DNA from: a virus
IMG/VR virus record: IMGVR_UViG_3300017527_000196
Location: 1-22,219 of that record
Length of the DNA: 22,219 bases
Strand: one strand, 5' to 3'
The translations under genes and the position numbers were made by a program. Shown here in pieces: positions 248-7,280 of the stretch (position 1 is the stretch's first letter; each line of letters begins with the position of its first letter). The notes under the pieces are model-generated. The model was not told where the DNA came from and ran no database searches. It saw only the letters and a list, made by a program, of their open reading frames with translations.

Positions 248-760
248 ATGGCGAAGAAAAAATCAGTCAAGAAAAAGGAAACGAAGTTGATATCAATGTC
301 CCAGTATGCGAAGCAGCGCGACGTCTCATATTCTCTGATCCGTAGATATTGCAAGATTGAGCCAGTTAAAATAACACTGATCAATGGGATGATTGATCCC
401 GAAGCTGCAGACCTAGAGCTTGAACAGAATGTCAATATAAACGGAAACTCGAAGCTTGACAAAAAGGCAGAGAAAAAAGTCACAGAAGTCAATCATGGTG
501 TTGAGTTCAACAAAGCAAAGGCCCGGCGCGAAAAAAGCAAAGCTGATCTGGCAGAGCTGGAATATAAAGAGAAAGCCGGGCAAGTGATTAACACGAAGCA
601 AGTAAAAAAAGAGGCTGAAGATTTATACAGACGTTACCGGGATCAAATGTTGAATGTAGTAGTCAGAGCAGCAAAGAAGCTACTCGGAGAAACCGACGAG
701 TTTAAATTCAAGGCAATATTAAAGAAAGAGATTGAAAGTGCCATTCGAGAGGTGAAGTAA
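248..760 (+). CDS. terminase small subunit (Nu1-like)
   Basis: A 170-residue protein that probably recognises phage DNA and loads it onto the large terminase. After a Lys-rich N-terminus, residues 15-37 (SMSQYAKQRDVSYSLIRRY region) resemble the winged helix-turn-helix of Nu1-type small terminases. Residues 88-115 form a charged helix with the alternating KARREKSKADLAELEYKEK pattern followed by a G-x-V-I turn, which is characteristic of this family and contributes to oligomerisation and contact with the large subunit. Length is close to lambda Nu1 (about 180). The start ATG has AAAGGA just upstream. Its stop overlaps the next ATG (TAATG at 758-762). Unusually, the large subunit lies 2.5 kb downstream rather than adjacent. 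The family assignment rests on pattern and context, not on a search. Confidence 0.8.
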   Translation: MAKKKSVKKKETKLISMSQYAKQRDVSYSLIRRYCKIEPVKITLINGMIDPEAADLELEQNVNINGNSKLDKKAEKKVTEVNHGVEFNKAKARREKSKADLAELEYKEKAGQVINTKQVKKEAEDLYRRYRDQMLNVVVRAAKKLLGETDEFKFKAILKKEIESAIREVK

Positions 761-1404
761 TGAGAAAAAGACTTGATATAGCAGGTTTTAGATTTGGGAG
801 AATTACCGCTGTTAAGGTTAGCCAAAAAGCTACCAATCAAGGCAAAATTCTTTGGGATTTGGTTTGTGAATGTGGGAATAATCATACAGGACTAGCCTCA
901 GACTTGACACGCGGAAAGATTTTGTCGTGTGGTTGTTGGAGAAAAGAAGTCACAACTAAAAGAAATACGACTCACGGTAAGACTAGAAACAGATCCTATA
1001 ATACTTGGAATCATATAAAGGATAGATGTCTTAATCCAAAAAACAATGCTTATTATAATTATGGGGAAAGGGGCATAGATGTTTGTCAAGAGTGGATAAG
1101 TAGTTTTGATAGATTTTATCTTGACATGGGAGATCAACCAAAAGGAATGTCAATAGAAAGGATTGATAATAATAAAGGTTATTGCAAGTCTAATTGTAAA
1201 TGGGCAACTTCAAAAGAGCAGAACCGCAATAAAAGAAATATTCGTTTTGTTAGTCTTTTTGGGCAAAAAGAAAAATTGTCTTATTGGTGTGACGTTTATG
1301 ATATACAGAAAGACGTGCTATGGTCTAGGATCAAAAATGGATGGACTGATTACGAGGCGGTTACAAGGCCAGTTAGAAAAAAAACAAAAACACAAACAGG
1401 TTAA
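760..1404 (+). CDS. HNH-type phage homing endonuclease-like protein
   Basis: A 214-residue protein with the layout of free-standing phage HNH-like endonucleases. Residues 9-60 form an N-terminal zinc-ribbon-like part with CxC at 36-38 and SCGC at 56-59. Residues 79-160 are the nuclease-like core: the Y-x-x-W...R-C start, the YYNYGERGI segment near 98-106, the SIERIDNNKGY motif near 131-141, then NCKWAT and an Asn/Arg-rich end. Residues 163-203 look like the small C-terminal DNA-binding helix-turn-helix common in this group (L-x-x-R...GW...A). Such proteins cut DNA at specific sites and often move between phages; some HNH proteins beside terminases instead assist packaging. The gene is translationally coupled to the upstream gene by TAATG and by eye is more AT-rich than its neighbours, consistent with a later arrival. 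Confidence 0.8.
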   Translation: MRKRLDIAGFRFGRITAVKVSQKATNQGKILWDLVCECGNNHTGLASDLTRGKILSCGCWRKEVTTKRNTTHGKTRNRSYNTWNHIKDRCLNPKNNAYYNYGERGIDVCQEWISSFDRFYLDMGDQPKGMSIERIDNNKGYCKSNCKWATSKEQNRNKRNIRFVSLFGQKEKLSYWCDVYDIQKDVLWSRIKNGWTDYEAVTRPVRKKTKTQTG

Positions 1405-1424
1405 ATAGAAAGGAAGATAAAAAA

Positions 1425-1685
1425 ATGATTGACTCGTTTATACCAGACAATATTGATAAAGCTCAGTGGCATTTCACGGGAGAAGGAGAGGACGTTTTCG
1501 GAGTCCGGGAGGGAGTGAAAGTTGTCGAAAAATTCGCGCTGGTGAAAAGACGTCCAGACGGTTCCTTTGATTGGTCTATAGCTGGCACTGCTTTTCAAGG
1601 CCGGGAGCCTAACCGGGAAAGAGCGATTGACAAAGTTAATAGTTTATTCCTTTCGGCGATGGAAATGAAAGAGTCTCTGTCGTGA
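1425..1685 (+). CDS. small hypothetical phage protein
   Basis: An 86-residue protein that I do not recognise. It has a mixed alpha/beta character, a central KFALVKRRPDGSFDW segment that looks like two strands joined by a turn, and a helical end (ERAIDKVNSLFLSAMEM). There is no signal peptide, membrane segment or cysteine cluster. The ATG is preceded by AAGGA with ordinary spacing, and the gene lies 20 bases after the HNH gene. Its position in the compact packaging interval makes it a real gene, but nothing shows its role. Confidence 0.6.
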   Translation: MIDSFIPDNIDKAQWHFTGEGEDVFGVREGVKVVEKFALVKRRPDGSFDWSIAGTAFQGREPNRERAIDKVNSLFLSAMEMKESLS

Positions 1686-1701
1686 AGATGACAGACGATT
1701 A

Positions 1702-1908
1702 TTGATTGAGCTGGCGATTGCTTTTAGTAATACCGACGACTCTGATCTGGGAAGTTATCACAGGCGAAATTTAATGTCGATTTTCGCTGATCTTAATTGT
1801 GAACATATCGACTATCTGAAGTATGATAAAAAAGAAAGGGACTATAAATATGCTAAGCCATTACAGAACACTGAATGTCAAGCAGAAAGCAAAACCGGAA
1901 GAGATTAA
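1702..1908 (+). CDS. possible small hypothetical protein with TTG start, overlapping the J-domain gene
   Basis: A 68-residue reading frame starting at TTG. The part before 1850 reads like genuine protein (charged and amphipathic, with ...LAIAFSNTDDSDLG... and ...MSIFADLNCEHIDYL...), while the last 20 residues overlap the start of the J-domain gene and may be shadow. No good ribosome binding site precedes the TTG. Instead, an ATG at 1688 opens a five-codon frame (M-T-D-D-Y-stop) whose TGA at 1703-1705 overlaps the TTG as TTGA. That could be stop-start coupling, a -1 frameshift joining both parts, or a sequencing indel that broke one gene. Function unknown. Confidence 0.35.
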   Translation: MIELAIAFSNTDDSDLGSYHRRNLMSIFADLNCEHIDYLKYDKKERDYKYAKPLQNTECQAESKTGRD

Positions 1909-2500
1909 AGATCAATACCGGGAATTATCAAAGAAATATCATCCTGATAAAAATCAGGGCAACAAGGAAGCAGAGGAGAAGTTCAAGGGAATTACTGCAG
2001 CTTATGAAGTTTTAAGCTATCCAGAAAGGCGCAAGAATTACGATCTGACAGGAAGCGACGTGTCAGAGGCCGACATATCAGTGAAAGCGGGAGGATTGCT
2101 TCAACAACTATTTCAGAATGTAGTATCTCGAAAAGGTCTGGCTGAGATTGTCAATGCCGACATGATAGAACTGGTTAATAAGGCCCTTGACTCAGGGATG
2201 GTCAAACTGGAAACAAATATAACCACCGTAAGAGATAGCAGAAAGGAGATAGGCCGTATTTTGAAGAAATTAAAACACGAGAACAAAAACAATCCTATCG
2301 CTTTGATGCTGAAACAAGAGATCGCAAAACACACCGAAGCGATTGACACGTCAAAGCAGAATATCAGGATATGGAAAAAAGCAAGGATGCTCTGGAAAGA
2401 CTATGGCTTTGACTATGACCAGAAAATGAAAGTCAATTATCGCACTGGATATGGACCGAACATGAAAACAAACATGTTCACAACGACGGTGATGTCATGA
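1850..2500 (+). CDS. J-domain (DnaJ-like) co-chaperone protein
   Basis: A 216-residue protein with a complete N-terminal J domain at residues 1-66: helix I (SHYRTLNV), helix II (EEIKDQYRELSKKY), the diagnostic HPD tripeptide at 31-33, and helix III (AEEKFKGITAAYEVLSYPERRKNYD). J domains stimulate ATP hydrolysis by Hsp70/DnaK and bring it to a client. The remainder has no Gly/Phe region, zinc-finger region or DnaJ C-terminal domain; it is a helical, Lys-rich domain of unknown type, probably the client-binding part. I prefer the ATG at 1850, where the J domain begins, over an ATG at 1823 that would add nine residues. AAAGGGA lies upstream. The end overlaps the RusA gene as ATGA. It may recruit host DnaK to phage replication, packaging or head assembly; which one is unknown. 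Confidence 0.85.
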   Translation: MLSHYRTLNVKQKAKPEEIKDQYRELSKKYHPDKNQGNKEAEEKFKGITAAYEVLSYPERRKNYDLTGSDVSEADISVKAGGLLQQLFQNVVSRKGLAEIVNADMIELVNKALDSGMVKLETNITTVRDSRKEIGRILKKLKHENKNNPIALMLKQEIAKHTEAIDTSKQNIRIWKKARMLWKDYGFDYDQKMKVNYRTGYGPNMKTNMFTTTVMS

Positions 2501-2841
2501 CCGAGATAACAACTGTCAGAGCAAAACCGCTTTCAGTGAATGACGCATGGAGAGGGAGACGTTTCAAAACCGATAACTATAAGATTTATGAACGGGCTCT
2601 GCTTATAATGCTTCCGACTGAAATTTTTATCCCGGAGGGAGATTTAGAAATTACTCTTGAGTTTGGACTTTCTAACAAGGGGGGAGACTGGGACAATCCG
2701 ATTAAACCGTTTGTCGATGTGTTGCAAAAAAAATATGGATTCAATGACAATCGGATTTATGACGCAATTGTCAGAAAAAGAATAGTTCCGAGAGGAGAGG
2801 AATATATCAAGTTTAAATTAAAGGAGATTGACGTTGAGTGA
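2497..2841 (+). CDS. RusA-type Holliday junction resolvase
   Basis: A 114-residue endonuclease of the RusA family, which resolves four-way DNA junctions as a dimer using Mg2+. The start PLSVNDAWRGRR matches the family's substrate-binding opening. The active-site cluster is present: Asp64, Asp66, Asn67 (GDWDNPIK), Lys70, Asp74, and Asp84 in the following G-F-N-D segment. These match the acidic residues known to be essential in E. coli RusA, with nearly the same spacing, and the length is also close. It is coupled to the J-domain gene by ATGA. In a packaging block it probably removes branches from replicated or recombined concatemers so that terminase can proceed, as proposed for RusA and related resolvases in other phages. 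Confidence 0.88.
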   Translation: MTEITTVRAKPLSVNDAWRGRRFKTDNYKIYERALLIMLPTEIFIPEGDLEITLEFGLSNKGGDWDNPIKPFVDVLQKKYGFNDNRIYDAIVRKRIVPRGEEYIKFKLKEIDVE

Positions 2842-3265
2842 CGAGAGTAAGAAAAAAATAATGTATAGTTTGGAAAAAGAGAATGAGACATGGTACTACA
2901 GCGATATTGACGAGCTGATACAAGATGGATACAGAGAGGACTTGATTACATTGGAAGGAAAAGACGATCTTATCGTATACAGTGGCGTTTCTCATGTTAA
3001 AAAAGCCTCGACTTATTTAAATGATATTGTTGAGACGCTTACAGAAAATGCGCATGAGGAGTGCGGAGAGGTTTCTAGTTCATGGCTGGAGTCGGTTGGC
3101 GATACACTACAAAAACACATGGAAAAGTGTCTCGACGATTGGTGTTATAAGTACGGACAAGATGCATTTTTCGGACTCATAGAAAACATTAAGCCGATAC
3201 ACATTGTCGTATTAAAGGTTGATGATGCCGGAGTCAAGTGGATGTATAGAGATATGGATAATTAG
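2834..3265 (+). CDS. hypothetical phage protein (TTG start)
   Basis: About 143 residues, acidic, unrecognised. I choose TTG at 2834 because AAGGAG at 2821-2826 sits 7 bases before it; a TTG at 2828 in the same frame is too close to that site. The gene overlaps the end of RusA by 8 bases, so it is probably translationally coupled. The N-terminal half has a WYYSDIDELIQDGYRED segment, and the middle has a helical stretch with Cys residues (EECGEV, EKCLDDWCYKYG). It ends with a beta-like IHIVVLKV segment. There is no membrane segment or signal peptide. It is the last gene before the terL promoter. Confidence 0.6.
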   Translation: MSDESKKKIMYSLEKENETWYYSDIDELIQDGYREDLITLEGKDDLIVYSGVSHVKKASTYLNDIVETLTENAHEECGEVSSSWLESVGDTLQKHMEKCLDDWCYKYGQDAFFGLIENIKPIHIVVLKVDDAGVKWMYRDMDN

Positions 3266-3272
3266 ATAAAAC

Positions 3273-3301
3273 TTGACGATTAATCATGTACTTTTTATTA
3301 T
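3273..3301 (+). promoter_or_regulatory. sigma70-like promoter for the large terminase and head genes
   Basis: TTGACG at 3273-3278, a 17-base spacer, then TATTAT at 3296-3301: each box is one base off consensus with ideal spacing. A start 7 bases after the -10 box falls at about 3308, the A of the terL ATG, so the transcript would be leaderless. No Shine-Dalgarno sequence lies before that ATG, unlike most genes in the window. Confidence 0.6.
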
Positions 3302-3310
3302 TTGTACATG
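3285..3310. repeat. perfect 7+7 bp inverted repeat over the -10 box and terL start codon
   Basis: CATGTAC (3285-3291) and GTACATG (3304-3310) are exact reverse complements separated by 12 T-rich bases. The repeat is centred on the -10 box and its right arm contains the terL ATG. As DNA it looks like an operator for a dimeric regulator. In RNA made by readthrough from upstream it could fold and hide the AUG. Confidence 0.65.
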
Positions 3311-5218
3311 GTGGCATTAAAAAAAGGCGTCTACACAAAAGCAGCTCTCAGGGGGCTCACTCTTGATCCAGACTTACAGGTTCATGAGTGGGCCGAACAA
3401 TACAGAGTTCTATCCTCAAAAGGCTCAGCAGAGCCGGGGCGATGGAGAAACGAAAGAACACCATACCTCACAGAGATTATGTCTTGTCTCTCCGCAAATA
3501 ATCCCATTGACTACGCCGTGTTTGTTTCTGGGACGCAGCTCGGAAAAACAGAATGTATTCTGAACTGGGCTGGTGAAGTGATCCATTTAATGCCGGGGCC
3601 TATGGGGATCGTTCAGTCTACGTTGAAATCAGTCGAAGCTTTTTCAAAGCAAAGATTGCAACCGATGATTGATTGCACACCAGTGTTGACCGGGAGAGTT
3701 GCGAGCTCGCGAGAACGCGAAGCAGGCAACACTATTGATATGAAAGAGTTTCCCGGAGGCAGTATCAACCTAATGACTGCAAATTCCGAAGATACTTTGA
3801 GATCAAAGCCGATACGTTTTCTCGCTCTTGACGAGGTTGACATGTATCCGGGCTGGACTGTCTCTAAGGCTATCGAAAGAACAGAAACTTTTTCAAACAG
3901 AAAAATCTTTCTTTGTTCCTCTCCAAAAAAAGAAGTTGATTCTATAATCTGGGCTGAGTTCCTTATGTCTGATCAGCGTTTGTTTTTCCTTCCTTGTCCT
4001 GAGTGTGATAATTACGACACCATTAAATGGAAGAATATCAAATTTGATTATGACAGGGAGACGTTCAAGATTGCAGGTCAAGTGCTGCTTGCATGTGAGA
4101 ATTGCGGGACACTTATCCCGGAAAGCAAAAAACTTTCGATGTTGCAACAAGGCGAATGGAGACCACAAAATCCCGCTGGAAAGTATCCCGGATTCAGACT
4201 TCCACAACTTTATTCTGTACTTGGCTCCAGTAAGTGGAGGAGTGCAGTTAATAAACACTTAAAGATTCTGCAGAAAAAGAAAAAAGGAAATCCGACATAC
4301 ATAGAGGACAGGGAGACATGGACAAATGACGTCCTCGCTGAGCCGTGGGAGGAGGAAGAGACTCCCTCTATGAGCTGGGAGAAACTATTCAACAGGCGCG
4401 AAGATTACAAGATCGAGCCGTTAAATAAAAATATAGTTCTCTTAACAGCGGGGCTTGATATACAGGACGACAGAATCGAGGTTCAAGTTCTCGGTTTCGG
4501 CCTTAACTACGAAACTTATGTGATTGAATATAAAACATTTCATGGTGTTCTTGCTGATCTTGAAATCTGGTCGCATGTAGACGAATTCCTTTTAAAATCA
4601 TATGCGCATCCGTCAGGACAGAGAATGAGGATCATGTCAGCTGCCTTGGATACTGGCGGGCACTATCCCGCGAAAGTTTATGAATTTTGCAAGACTCGTT
4701 ATATACTAAAACAGAGATATGTATTTTCGATAAAAGGCTCTAGCTCATATAATCAGCCTATTGTCAAGGCTCCGTCTAAGCAGCAAGGGGCATATTTGTT
4801 TGTGGTAGGTACAGACACGGCAAAGGACCATTTGAACGAGTGCTTAAAGACTGAGGTTCCCGGAGCAGGTTATATTCATTTTCCTTTGAGAATGCCAGAG
4901 TCTTATTTTCATCAACTTTGTTCTGAGCGGAAGGTGACGGAGTGGTATAAAGGAAAACGTCGAAAGGTCTGGAAGAATACGAGCAGAGCGAGGAACGAGG
5001 CCCTTGACACTTTTGTTTATGGAATTGTCGCTCTTAATATTATGCAATACTGGCTTTATCCAAACGCTACAGTCTCACAGATGATCGAGGATATATCAAA
5101 AAAATATAATATAACTTTACAAAGTCCTCAGAATAAGGTAATTGAGCAAGGTACACAAAAAGGAAATCAGGTTCAAAAACCGAAACGACGAGTGATATCA
5201 AAAGGAGTTCAACTATAA
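3308..5218 (+). CDS. terminase large subunit (lambda gpA family)
   Basis: A 636-residue ATP-driven DNA packaging motor and nuclease; lambda gpA is about 641. The N-terminal ATPase carries Walker A (SGTQLGKTE, residues 74-82) and Walker B (FLALDEVD, 171-178, with Asp175-Glu176). A zinc-ribbon-like insert follows (CPEC... then CENC, around residues 226-264), as in other gpA-type terminases. The C-terminal nuclease shows its acidic residues in GLDIQDDRIEVQ, ALDTGGHYP and NEALDTFVYG, in the expected order. ATG at 3308 is chosen; a TTG two codons upstream is the only other nearby start. No ribosome binding site is visible, but the promoter places the transcript start at the ATG. With the Nu1-like subunit it would cut concatemers at cos-like sites, although no cos site was recognised here. 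Confidence 0.95.
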   Translation: MVALKKGVYTKAALRGLTLDPDLQVHEWAEQYRVLSSKGSAEPGRWRNERTPYLTEIMSCLSANNPIDYAVFVSGTQLGKTECILNWAGEVIHLMPGPMGIVQSTLKSVEAFSKQRLQPMIDCTPVLTGRVASSREREAGNTIDMKEFPGGSINLMTANSEDTLRSKPIRFLALDEVDMYPGWTVSKAIERTETFSNRKIFLCSSPKKEVDSIIWAEFLMSDQRLFFLPCPECDNYDTIKWKNIKFDYDRETFKIAGQVLLACENCGTLIPESKKLSMLQQGEWRPQNPAGKYPGFRLPQLYSVLGSSKWRSAVNKHLKILQKKKKGNPTYIEDRETWTNDVLAEPWEEEETPSMSWEKLFNRREDYKIEPLNKNIVLLTAGLDIQDDRIEVQVLGFGLNYETYVIEYKTFHGVLADLEIWSHVDEFLLKSYAHPSGQRMRIMSAALDTGGHYPAKVYEFCKTRYILKQRYVFSIKGSSSYNQPIVKAPSKQQGAYLFVVGTDTAKDHLNECLKTEVPGAGYIHFPLRMPESYFHQLCSERKVTEWYKGKRRKVWKNTSRARNEALDTFVYGIVALNIMQYWLYPNATVSQMIEDISKKYNITLQSPQNKVIEQGTQKGNQVQKPKRRVISKGVQL

Positions 5219-5675: not shown

Positions 5676-7280
5676 ATGAGAAATAGACTAAACAAAATAA
5701 CTCGCAGCAACAATCCTGTCAACATGGCTGCTTTGCCTTTGATCGCTCAACAGAGTATGATTGAGAAAAATAACTTTGTCGGTATTAATGGCGCATACAA
5801 CGGGGCCTCTAAAAAAAGGCGAACCATAAAAGAATTCGATCCCAAAGTGGGAGACGCTGACGCCGACACGCTGGACGACCTTCCGACTTTAAGAAATCGC
5901 AGTCGTTCATTATTGAGAAACACTCCCATTGCAGCTGGAGCCGTCAAAACGAATCAAGTCCATGTCATAGGATCAGGACTGAAACTTCAATCAAGGATAG
6001 ATGCTGGCAAACTTGGCTTGAGTGCTGAACAGGCCGACGAATGGCAACAAAACACAGAGGCTGAATTCAACTCGTGGGCTGAGTCTCTTGACTGTGACAT
6101 TAACAGAGGAAAAAATTTCTACGACTTTCAAAATATGGTTTTTCGTTCGATCCTTGAAAGTGGGGATTGTTTCGTCCTTCCTTTGTTCAAGGAAATCAAT
6201 ACATTAAATTATGGATTAAGGCTGCAGGTTCTCGAAGCTGACAGAGTAGAAAATCCACATAATAAAAGAGATACAACGACACTGGCTGGAGGTATAGAAA
6301 AAACAAAGGCCGGGACACCGAAAAGATACTGGATCAGAACGCAGCATCCGGGAGCAGAGTCAACACCTATCGAGCGGAAGTGGGACTCAATCAGTGCCTT
6401 TACCGGGAACGGACGAAGAAAAATAATACATGTCTTTGAACAATTAAGACCGGGCCAGAGTAGAGGAATTCCATATCTCGCGCCTGTCGTTGAAATGCTT
6501 CACCAGCTCGGCAAGTACACGGACGCAGAGTTGCAGAGTGCTGTCATTTCATCATACTTCACAGTGTTTGTGGAAACACCAGAGGGAGGGGCTGACTTTT
6601 CAACGTTCTTGCCTAGTGACGAGGGCGGAGAGTCAACAGACGAAGATTATCAAATGGGAAGCGGTGCAATTGTTGGACTGGCAGAGGGGGAGAAAATATC
6701 AACAGCAAATCCGGGGAGGCCTAACTCTGCATTTGATCCATTCGTCCAGAGTATATTGAGACAAATCGGAGCAGCACTGGGGCTGCCTTTTGAATTATTG
6801 ATCCAGCATTTTACAAAGAGTTATTCTGCAGCGCGAACAGCTATGTTGAATGCTTGGAAAGTTTTCATGACTCGTCGAGGTTTTATGGTCGATCATTTTT
6901 GTAATTTGATATATGAGCTCTGGATGGAAGAGGCCGTCTTGAGAAACAGGATAATCGCTCCCGGTTACTTGACTGATCCATTAATCAGAAAAGCATATCT
7001 CGGAAACTTATGGATCGGACCGTCACAAGGTCAAATTGATCCAACAAAAGAAACAGCTGCAGCACAAGCAAGAGTTGACGGTTTCTTCAGCAACATTGCT
7101 GCAGAGTCTGCATCTATGGGGATTGACTTTGATCAAAATATTAAGCAGGTGAAAAAAGAGCAGACAAAACTTGCAGAGATTAGAAAAATAATAAATCCTA
7201 TGCCTGTTGAAGCTACAACAGGAAACGATAATAACTCTTTGAGTGAGGAATCAAACGATGACAATAAAACAGGGGCTTAA
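5676..7280 (+). CDS. portal protein (lambda gpB family)
   Basis: A 534-residue portal, almost exactly the length of lambda gpB (533). Twelve copies would form the ring at the capsid vertex through which terminase packs DNA and to which head completion proteins bind. Family features include the N-terminal TLRNRSRSLLRNTPIAAGAV-type helix (around residues 70-90), the GIPYLAPVVEMLHQLGKYTDAE region (around 267-288), and the strongly conserved LPFELLIQHF then YSAARTAMLNAWK region (around 369-393). The ATG lies 6 bases after the preceding gene. Its last 23 bases overlap the protease gene. In lambda the homologue is partly cleaved by the head protease; cleavage here is not predictable from sequence. 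Confidence 0.93.
   Translation: MRNRLNKITRSNNPVNMAALPLIAQQSMIEKNNFVGINGAYNGASKKRRTIKEFDPKVGDADADTLDDLPTLRNRSRSLLRNTPIAAGAVKTNQVHVIGSGLKLQSRIDAGKLGLSAEQADEWQQNTEAEFNSWAESLDCDINRGKNFYDFQNMVFRSILESGDCFVLPLFKEINTLNYGLRLQVLEADRVENPHNKRDTTTLAGGIEKTKAGTPKRYWIRTQHPGAESTPIERKWDSISAFTGNGRRKIIHVFEQLRPGQSRGIPYLAPVVEMLHQLGKYTDAELQSAVISSYFTVFVETPEGGADFSTFLPSDEGGESTDEDYQMGSGAIVGLAEGEKISTANPGRPNSAFDPFVQSILRQIGAALGLPFELLIQHFTKSYSAARTAMLNAWKVFMTRRGFMVDHFCNLIYELWMEEAVLRNRIIAPGYLTDPLIRKAYLGNLWIGPSQGQIDPTKETAAAQARVDGFFSNIAAESASMGIDFDQNIKQVKKEQTKLAEIRKIINPMPVEATTGNDNNSLSEESNDDNKTGA

Follow-up and report, generated by a model that had tools for sequence, protein, structure and literature searches.

A conserved promoter adjoining the start codon of the large terminase gene points to a leaderless terL mRNA in a clade of phages

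The viral DNA analyzed here (IMG/VR record IMGVR_UViG_3300017527_000196), the whole 22,219-nucleotide stretch of which is termed the window, contains a large terminase gene, terL, that is directly preceded by promoter-like boxes and has no Shine-Dalgarno (SD) site. The relevant genes and features are as follows.

248..760, plus strand: terS, small terminase subunit (phrog_57, 6e-21).
1823-2500: gene for a DnaJ-domain protein (PF00226, 3e-25).
2834..3265, plus strand: gene adjacent to terL on the upstream side, PHROG 1672 (PHROG match 3e-9).
3273..3278, plus strand: -35 box TTGACG, of which TTGAC is kept in six other distinct sequences.
3285..3291, plus strand: left arm CATGTAC of an inverted repeat, which in readthrough RNA might base-pair with 3304-3310 and is paired in the predicted fold.
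3296..3301, plus strand: -10 box TATTAT, ending six bases 5' of the ATG.
3304..3310, plus strand: right arm GTACATG, which includes the ATG and, like the left arm, is absent from all relatives.
3308..3310, plus strand: ATG start codon of terL, whose A at 3308 is the predicted transcript start.
3308..5218, plus strand: terL, GpA-type large terminase subunit (PF05876, 9e-70; PF20454, 9e-73).

Both family matches of terL are far over the cut-off and the ATPase and nuclease domains of the GpA family are present; no Rfam families or tRNAs were found in the window. The terS gene lies about 2.5 kb before terL, and in all members of the clade where both genes were seen they are parted by 2.5-3.6 kb of variable genes (760-3265 in the window), which include an HNH endonuclease, DnaJ-like and RusA-like or VRR-NUC-like genes and others that are unassigned. 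The PHROG 1672 gene does not adjoin terL in the relatives, where the upstream neighbor, by reading of the sequences, is HNH endonuclease-like in G001, VRR-NUC-like in L002 and a small gene in G003 and G004. In L007 the -35 box is contained in the last part of the preceding gene. Measured from terL, the nearest predicted stop upstream is 23-56 nt away in some records and more than 500 nt in others. A DnaJ-domain protein between terS and terL is kept across the clade (G001 4369-5067, G002 4048-4695, G003 36847-37647, G004 1315-1962 and G005 6109-6825), and phage RB43 is known to encode a functional J-domain protein (PMC3486835). The putative promoter heads a run consisting of terL and the genes for the head-tail adaptor, portal, protease and capsid, and all of the predicted genes are on one strand in the window, G001-G003 and G005-G007.

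The boxes TTGACG and TATTAT (3273-3301) are separated by a 17-nt spacer (3279-3295) and are followed by TTGTAC and the terL ATG at 3308, just as an earlier note on this DNA had claimed. Because the -10 box ends six bases upstream, the predicted transcription start is the A of this ATG, a placement based on the distance from the -10 box, on this being the sole start codon position common to all relatives, and on the absence of an SD throughout. Taken alone, the window promoter is only modestly unusual. Relative to shuffles of the upstream DNA, the p value is 0.024 for a promoter equally good and equally far from the ATG and 0.0016 for the strict promoter pattern at terL, and promoter-like sites show no general enrichment in the window (51 versus 48.8 expected). 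It is because of its conservation in relatives that the terL promoter rises above chance.

The first search yielded L001 and one true relative, L002 (71% TerL identity). With 99.9% DNA identity over 7.9 kb, L001 is the same virus, so that it says nothing on conservation and was rejected as a relative. A further six, L004, L005, L007, L082, L164, and L165 (79-84% TerL identity), came from alignment-based searches together with a portal search, with L006, which has the same sequence as L005 at the terL start region, counted together with it as one. Eight distinct sequences were thus compared, namely the window, the six at 79-84% identity and L002. Scans of genome contigs found no close relative and thus no host.

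In the window and the six relatives, terL is preceded by TTGAC, a spacer of 16-18 nt, a TANNNT hexamer (TATTAT, TAGTAT or TATATT) and exactly six bases before the ATG, with 10-11 of 12 matches in these seven sequences to the sigma70-type consensus TTGACA/TATAAT. L002 has TATACT-N7-ATG without a convincing -35 box (9 of 12 matches, the -35 being weak), and hence the first T of the -10 box is 12 bases 5' of the ATG in seven sequences and 13 in L002. The strict pattern matches terL in eight of the nine records (seven distinct sequences, window included), with one other site across all nine and none in the reversed control, and the terL promoter is the only promoter-like intergenic site that recurs between genomes (eight records). 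Mean pairwise identity is 0.88 for the -35 box (0.43 when shuffled) and 0.80 for the -10 box, and is at background both in the spacer (0.51 versus 0.48 shuffled) and in the 100 nt upstream (0.57 versus 0.55), which is a footprint of selection acting on both boxes and on the interval between them and the ATG. The promoter cases are not fully independent, since six of the seven full cases share at least 79% TerL identity, and L082, L164, and L165 are close to one another.

Among 154 distant TerL loci, a plausible SD is present in 118 and a leaderless-type promoter with at least 9 of 12 matches in none; the predicted leaderless arrangement at terL is one that belongs to this clade, the distant GpA terminases being without it. 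The strict motif is found in 44 stretches of viral contigs, and most of those outside the clade precede very short or unrelated reading frames. The motif scan also revealed a recurring promoter-like element, TTGAC...TATACTATGTGTATGGT, in other phage contigs (L184, L199, L206, L209, L215, L186, and L226), where it precedes a frame of eight or three codons (MVLFYTDI, MVG) and has two copies at a single locus in L186 and L226; this element is perhaps a conserved phage promoter.

That terL lacks an SD while most genes here have one, as the earlier note stated, is borne out by a pairing energy of +0.9 kcal/mol at the terL ATG of the window, compared with -4 kcal/mol or better in 20 of its 25 predicted genes. 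Across the eight sequences the values at this ATG range from +0.4 to +1.9 kcal/mol, such that none has an SD there, and about 170 of the 211 predicted genes in the compared records (~80%) do have one, with the genes called by a home-made finder that picks the start with the best SD. An ATG is present at the terL start in all eight. Relative to the window, L005 has three more residues and L002 one fewer before a shared GxxTxAAL stretch, and the distance from the -10 box to the ATG is constant within one base despite these differences in N-terminal length. The second terL codon varies synonymously (GTG, GTC, GTT) except in L002, as would be expected if coding begins at this ATG. A downstream in-frame TTG, which was the SD-based choice in several relatives, was rejected as the start since the window and L005 have no start codon at that position, and this serves as a warning for gene callers that SD-guided choice misplaces the terL start. 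Two other genes have a weak SD or none. The portal gene (window 5676) has a pairing energy of -2.9 kcal/mol (-2.4 to -3.2 in several relatives) and a start without a leaderless-type promoter, and the gene that directly follows the longest one of the tail region lacks an SD and has a conserved AATCCGTATTAAAYTATG before its start (G001 22148, G003 10319 and G005 23664, in contig coordinates), where coupling is likely because the start closely follows the previous stop.

We propose that the host sigma70-type RNA polymerase would start on the A of the terL ATG and that ribosomes binding the 5'-terminal AUG would translate TerL from a leaderless mRNA. The boxes, their spacing, the absence of an SD and the conservation are read directly from the sequence, and from these we infer the start site, the leaderless translation and the role of the promoter. 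That terL has its own sigma70-type promoter, with a predicted start on the ATG and a leaderless mRNA, is in our judgment highly probable, and the leaderless mRNA is well supported by the conserved boxes, the spacing, the lack of an SD and the strict pattern matches. This part of the earlier proposal is supported, as the arrangement is kept in six further distinct sequences and partly in L002, with an SD absent from all of them. The promoter would serve the packaging and head gene run opened by terL and probably drives the structural genes, because it is located at the head of the terL-capsid run, past the variable block. A reason for its retention may be that terS and terL are parted by a swappable gene block (nucleases, DnaJ-like and others). 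Readthrough RNA, with no SD and an internal and often paired AUG, would contribute little, so that TerL would be made mainly from its own promoter.

Leaderless phage mRNAs are already known, including those of lambda cI and of PY54 cI and cro (PMC4488713, PMC9031893), and according to one transcriptomic paper phage transcripts are often leaderless (PMC5312081); among bacteria, such mRNAs are seldom seen in the enterobacteria and are frequent in certain other groups (PMC9031893). These phage genes resemble terL in having a phage promoter whose -10 box adjoins the coding region and in having the AUG at the very 5' end of the mRNA, as is predicted for terL, but they encode regulators and have mapped starts and known operators, whereas terL encodes a terminase and has a predicted start and no conserved operator that we could find. 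Bacterial leaderless genes have a TANNNT signal whose first T lies 12 bases upstream of the start codon (Zheng et al., 2011, PMC3160421). The same distance and the same lack of an SD are seen at terL, which differs from them in that it also has a good -35 box and is one gene in otherwise SD-using genomes. We found no report of a leaderless terminase in the open literature, subscription papers being outside the scope of the search.

A further mechanism, additional to the leaderless promoter, would be sequestration of the AUG by a hairpin in the readthrough RNA, with RNA from the proximal promoter being without the 5' strand of that hairpin. This is the situation with T4 gene e, soc and I-TevI, in which a hairpin over the start region is combined with a proximal late promoter (PMC3014915, PMC2988022). 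We regard this as possible at terL but tentative. In the predicted folds the AUG is almost fully paired in the readthrough RNA of the window and L005, and freer in the leaderless RNA (unpaired probability 0.63 and 0.91, respectively), bases 5' of the AUG pair with early codons in L007 and L002, and L007, L002, L004, and L082 each show different hairpins at the start region. A start at the AUG, as predicted, would exclude every upstream hairpin arm from the proximal-promoter RNA. The cost of opening the start region exceeds that of shuffled upstream DNA with a combined p of about 0.0001-0.002, the range reflecting which close relative represents its group, on a measure that was picked after the folds were seen. 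However, its excess over other gene starts is no more than marginal (p 0.03-0.06), the pairing is not conserved among the relatives, and the overall fold energy of the window has a z of 0.06. Because the measures were chosen after seeing the folds, occlusion of the AUG is a lead and not a result, and, with the SD missing, translation of terL from readthrough RNA is expected to be poor whether or not a hairpin forms. As in the T4 gene e type, the long transcript is predicted to fold over the start and the proximal-promoter RNA to lack the 5' strand, but T4 uses its own late sigma and its mRNA keeps an SD, whereas terL has sigma70-type boxes and no leader, and its pairings are predicted only and differ between lineages. 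The suggestion that readthrough RNA hides the AUG thus stands tentatively as a general property, although in the relatives it would not be by way of the CATGTAC repeat. We consider it less likely still that the clade controls its packaging motor in this way, with lineage-specific hairpins that hide the AUG and translation only of AUG-started RNA, so that TerL synthesis would perhaps depend on how many 70S ribosomes are available during infection. Relative to the known leaderless phage genes, the terL case would add an extension, still unproven, towards start occlusion of the T4 type.

It seems improbable that TerL is made instead from a long readthrough RNA in an SD-independent fashion, by means of a U-rich standby site, coupling or 70S scanning, with the promoter mattering little. 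The location of the predicted genes on one strand makes readthrough likely and the region before the terL ATG is U-rich, but both hexamers, and how far they lie from the ATG, have been conserved against a background of divergence in the spacer and the DNA further upstream, and coupling is not a common feature of the members because the upstream genes and the stop distances vary.

The inverted repeat described in the earlier note, CATGTAC-N12-GTACATG, is present in the window with perfect 7-bp arms and a 12-nt loop and includes the ATG, and its position over the -10 box would suit an operator at which a dimeric regulator represses the terL promoter. However, the repeat is absent from every relative compared, including all that keep the promoter, and no shared palindrome of any other kind was found at this place among them (L082 and L165 have a different 6-bp repeat in common, which L164 lacks). 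The only copies of CATGTAC in the window are these two (2.2 expected by chance), with no second pair of arms elsewhere in it, and its 33 repeats of this class, with an arm length of 7 or more and a loop length of up to 20, compare with 34.5 in shuffles. With the palindrome missing from every relative and repeats of its class at the shuffled level, the operator idea is unsupported and a conserved operator at this place is unlikely; repression of the terL promoter by a dimeric regulator bound to the palindrome we would judge very improbable. Hence, what the relatives preserve of the earlier proposal are the promoter boxes and not the CATGTAC repeat. Least credible of all is that an AT-rich gap merely resembles promoter boxes, in that promoter-like sites in the window are indeed near the expected number but six other sequences carry the pattern at the corresponding position, and a single stray match is found elsewhere.

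The mapped leaderless phage mRNAs that we found in the literature encode regulators and so, if true, a conserved leaderless terL promoter would bring leaderless initiation into the packaging and structural program of a phage. It would also provide a testable case of why a phage withholds the ribosome-binding site from one gene, for which possible reasons are that the motor is kept scarce relative to the capsid protein or that its synthesis is tied to its own promoter.
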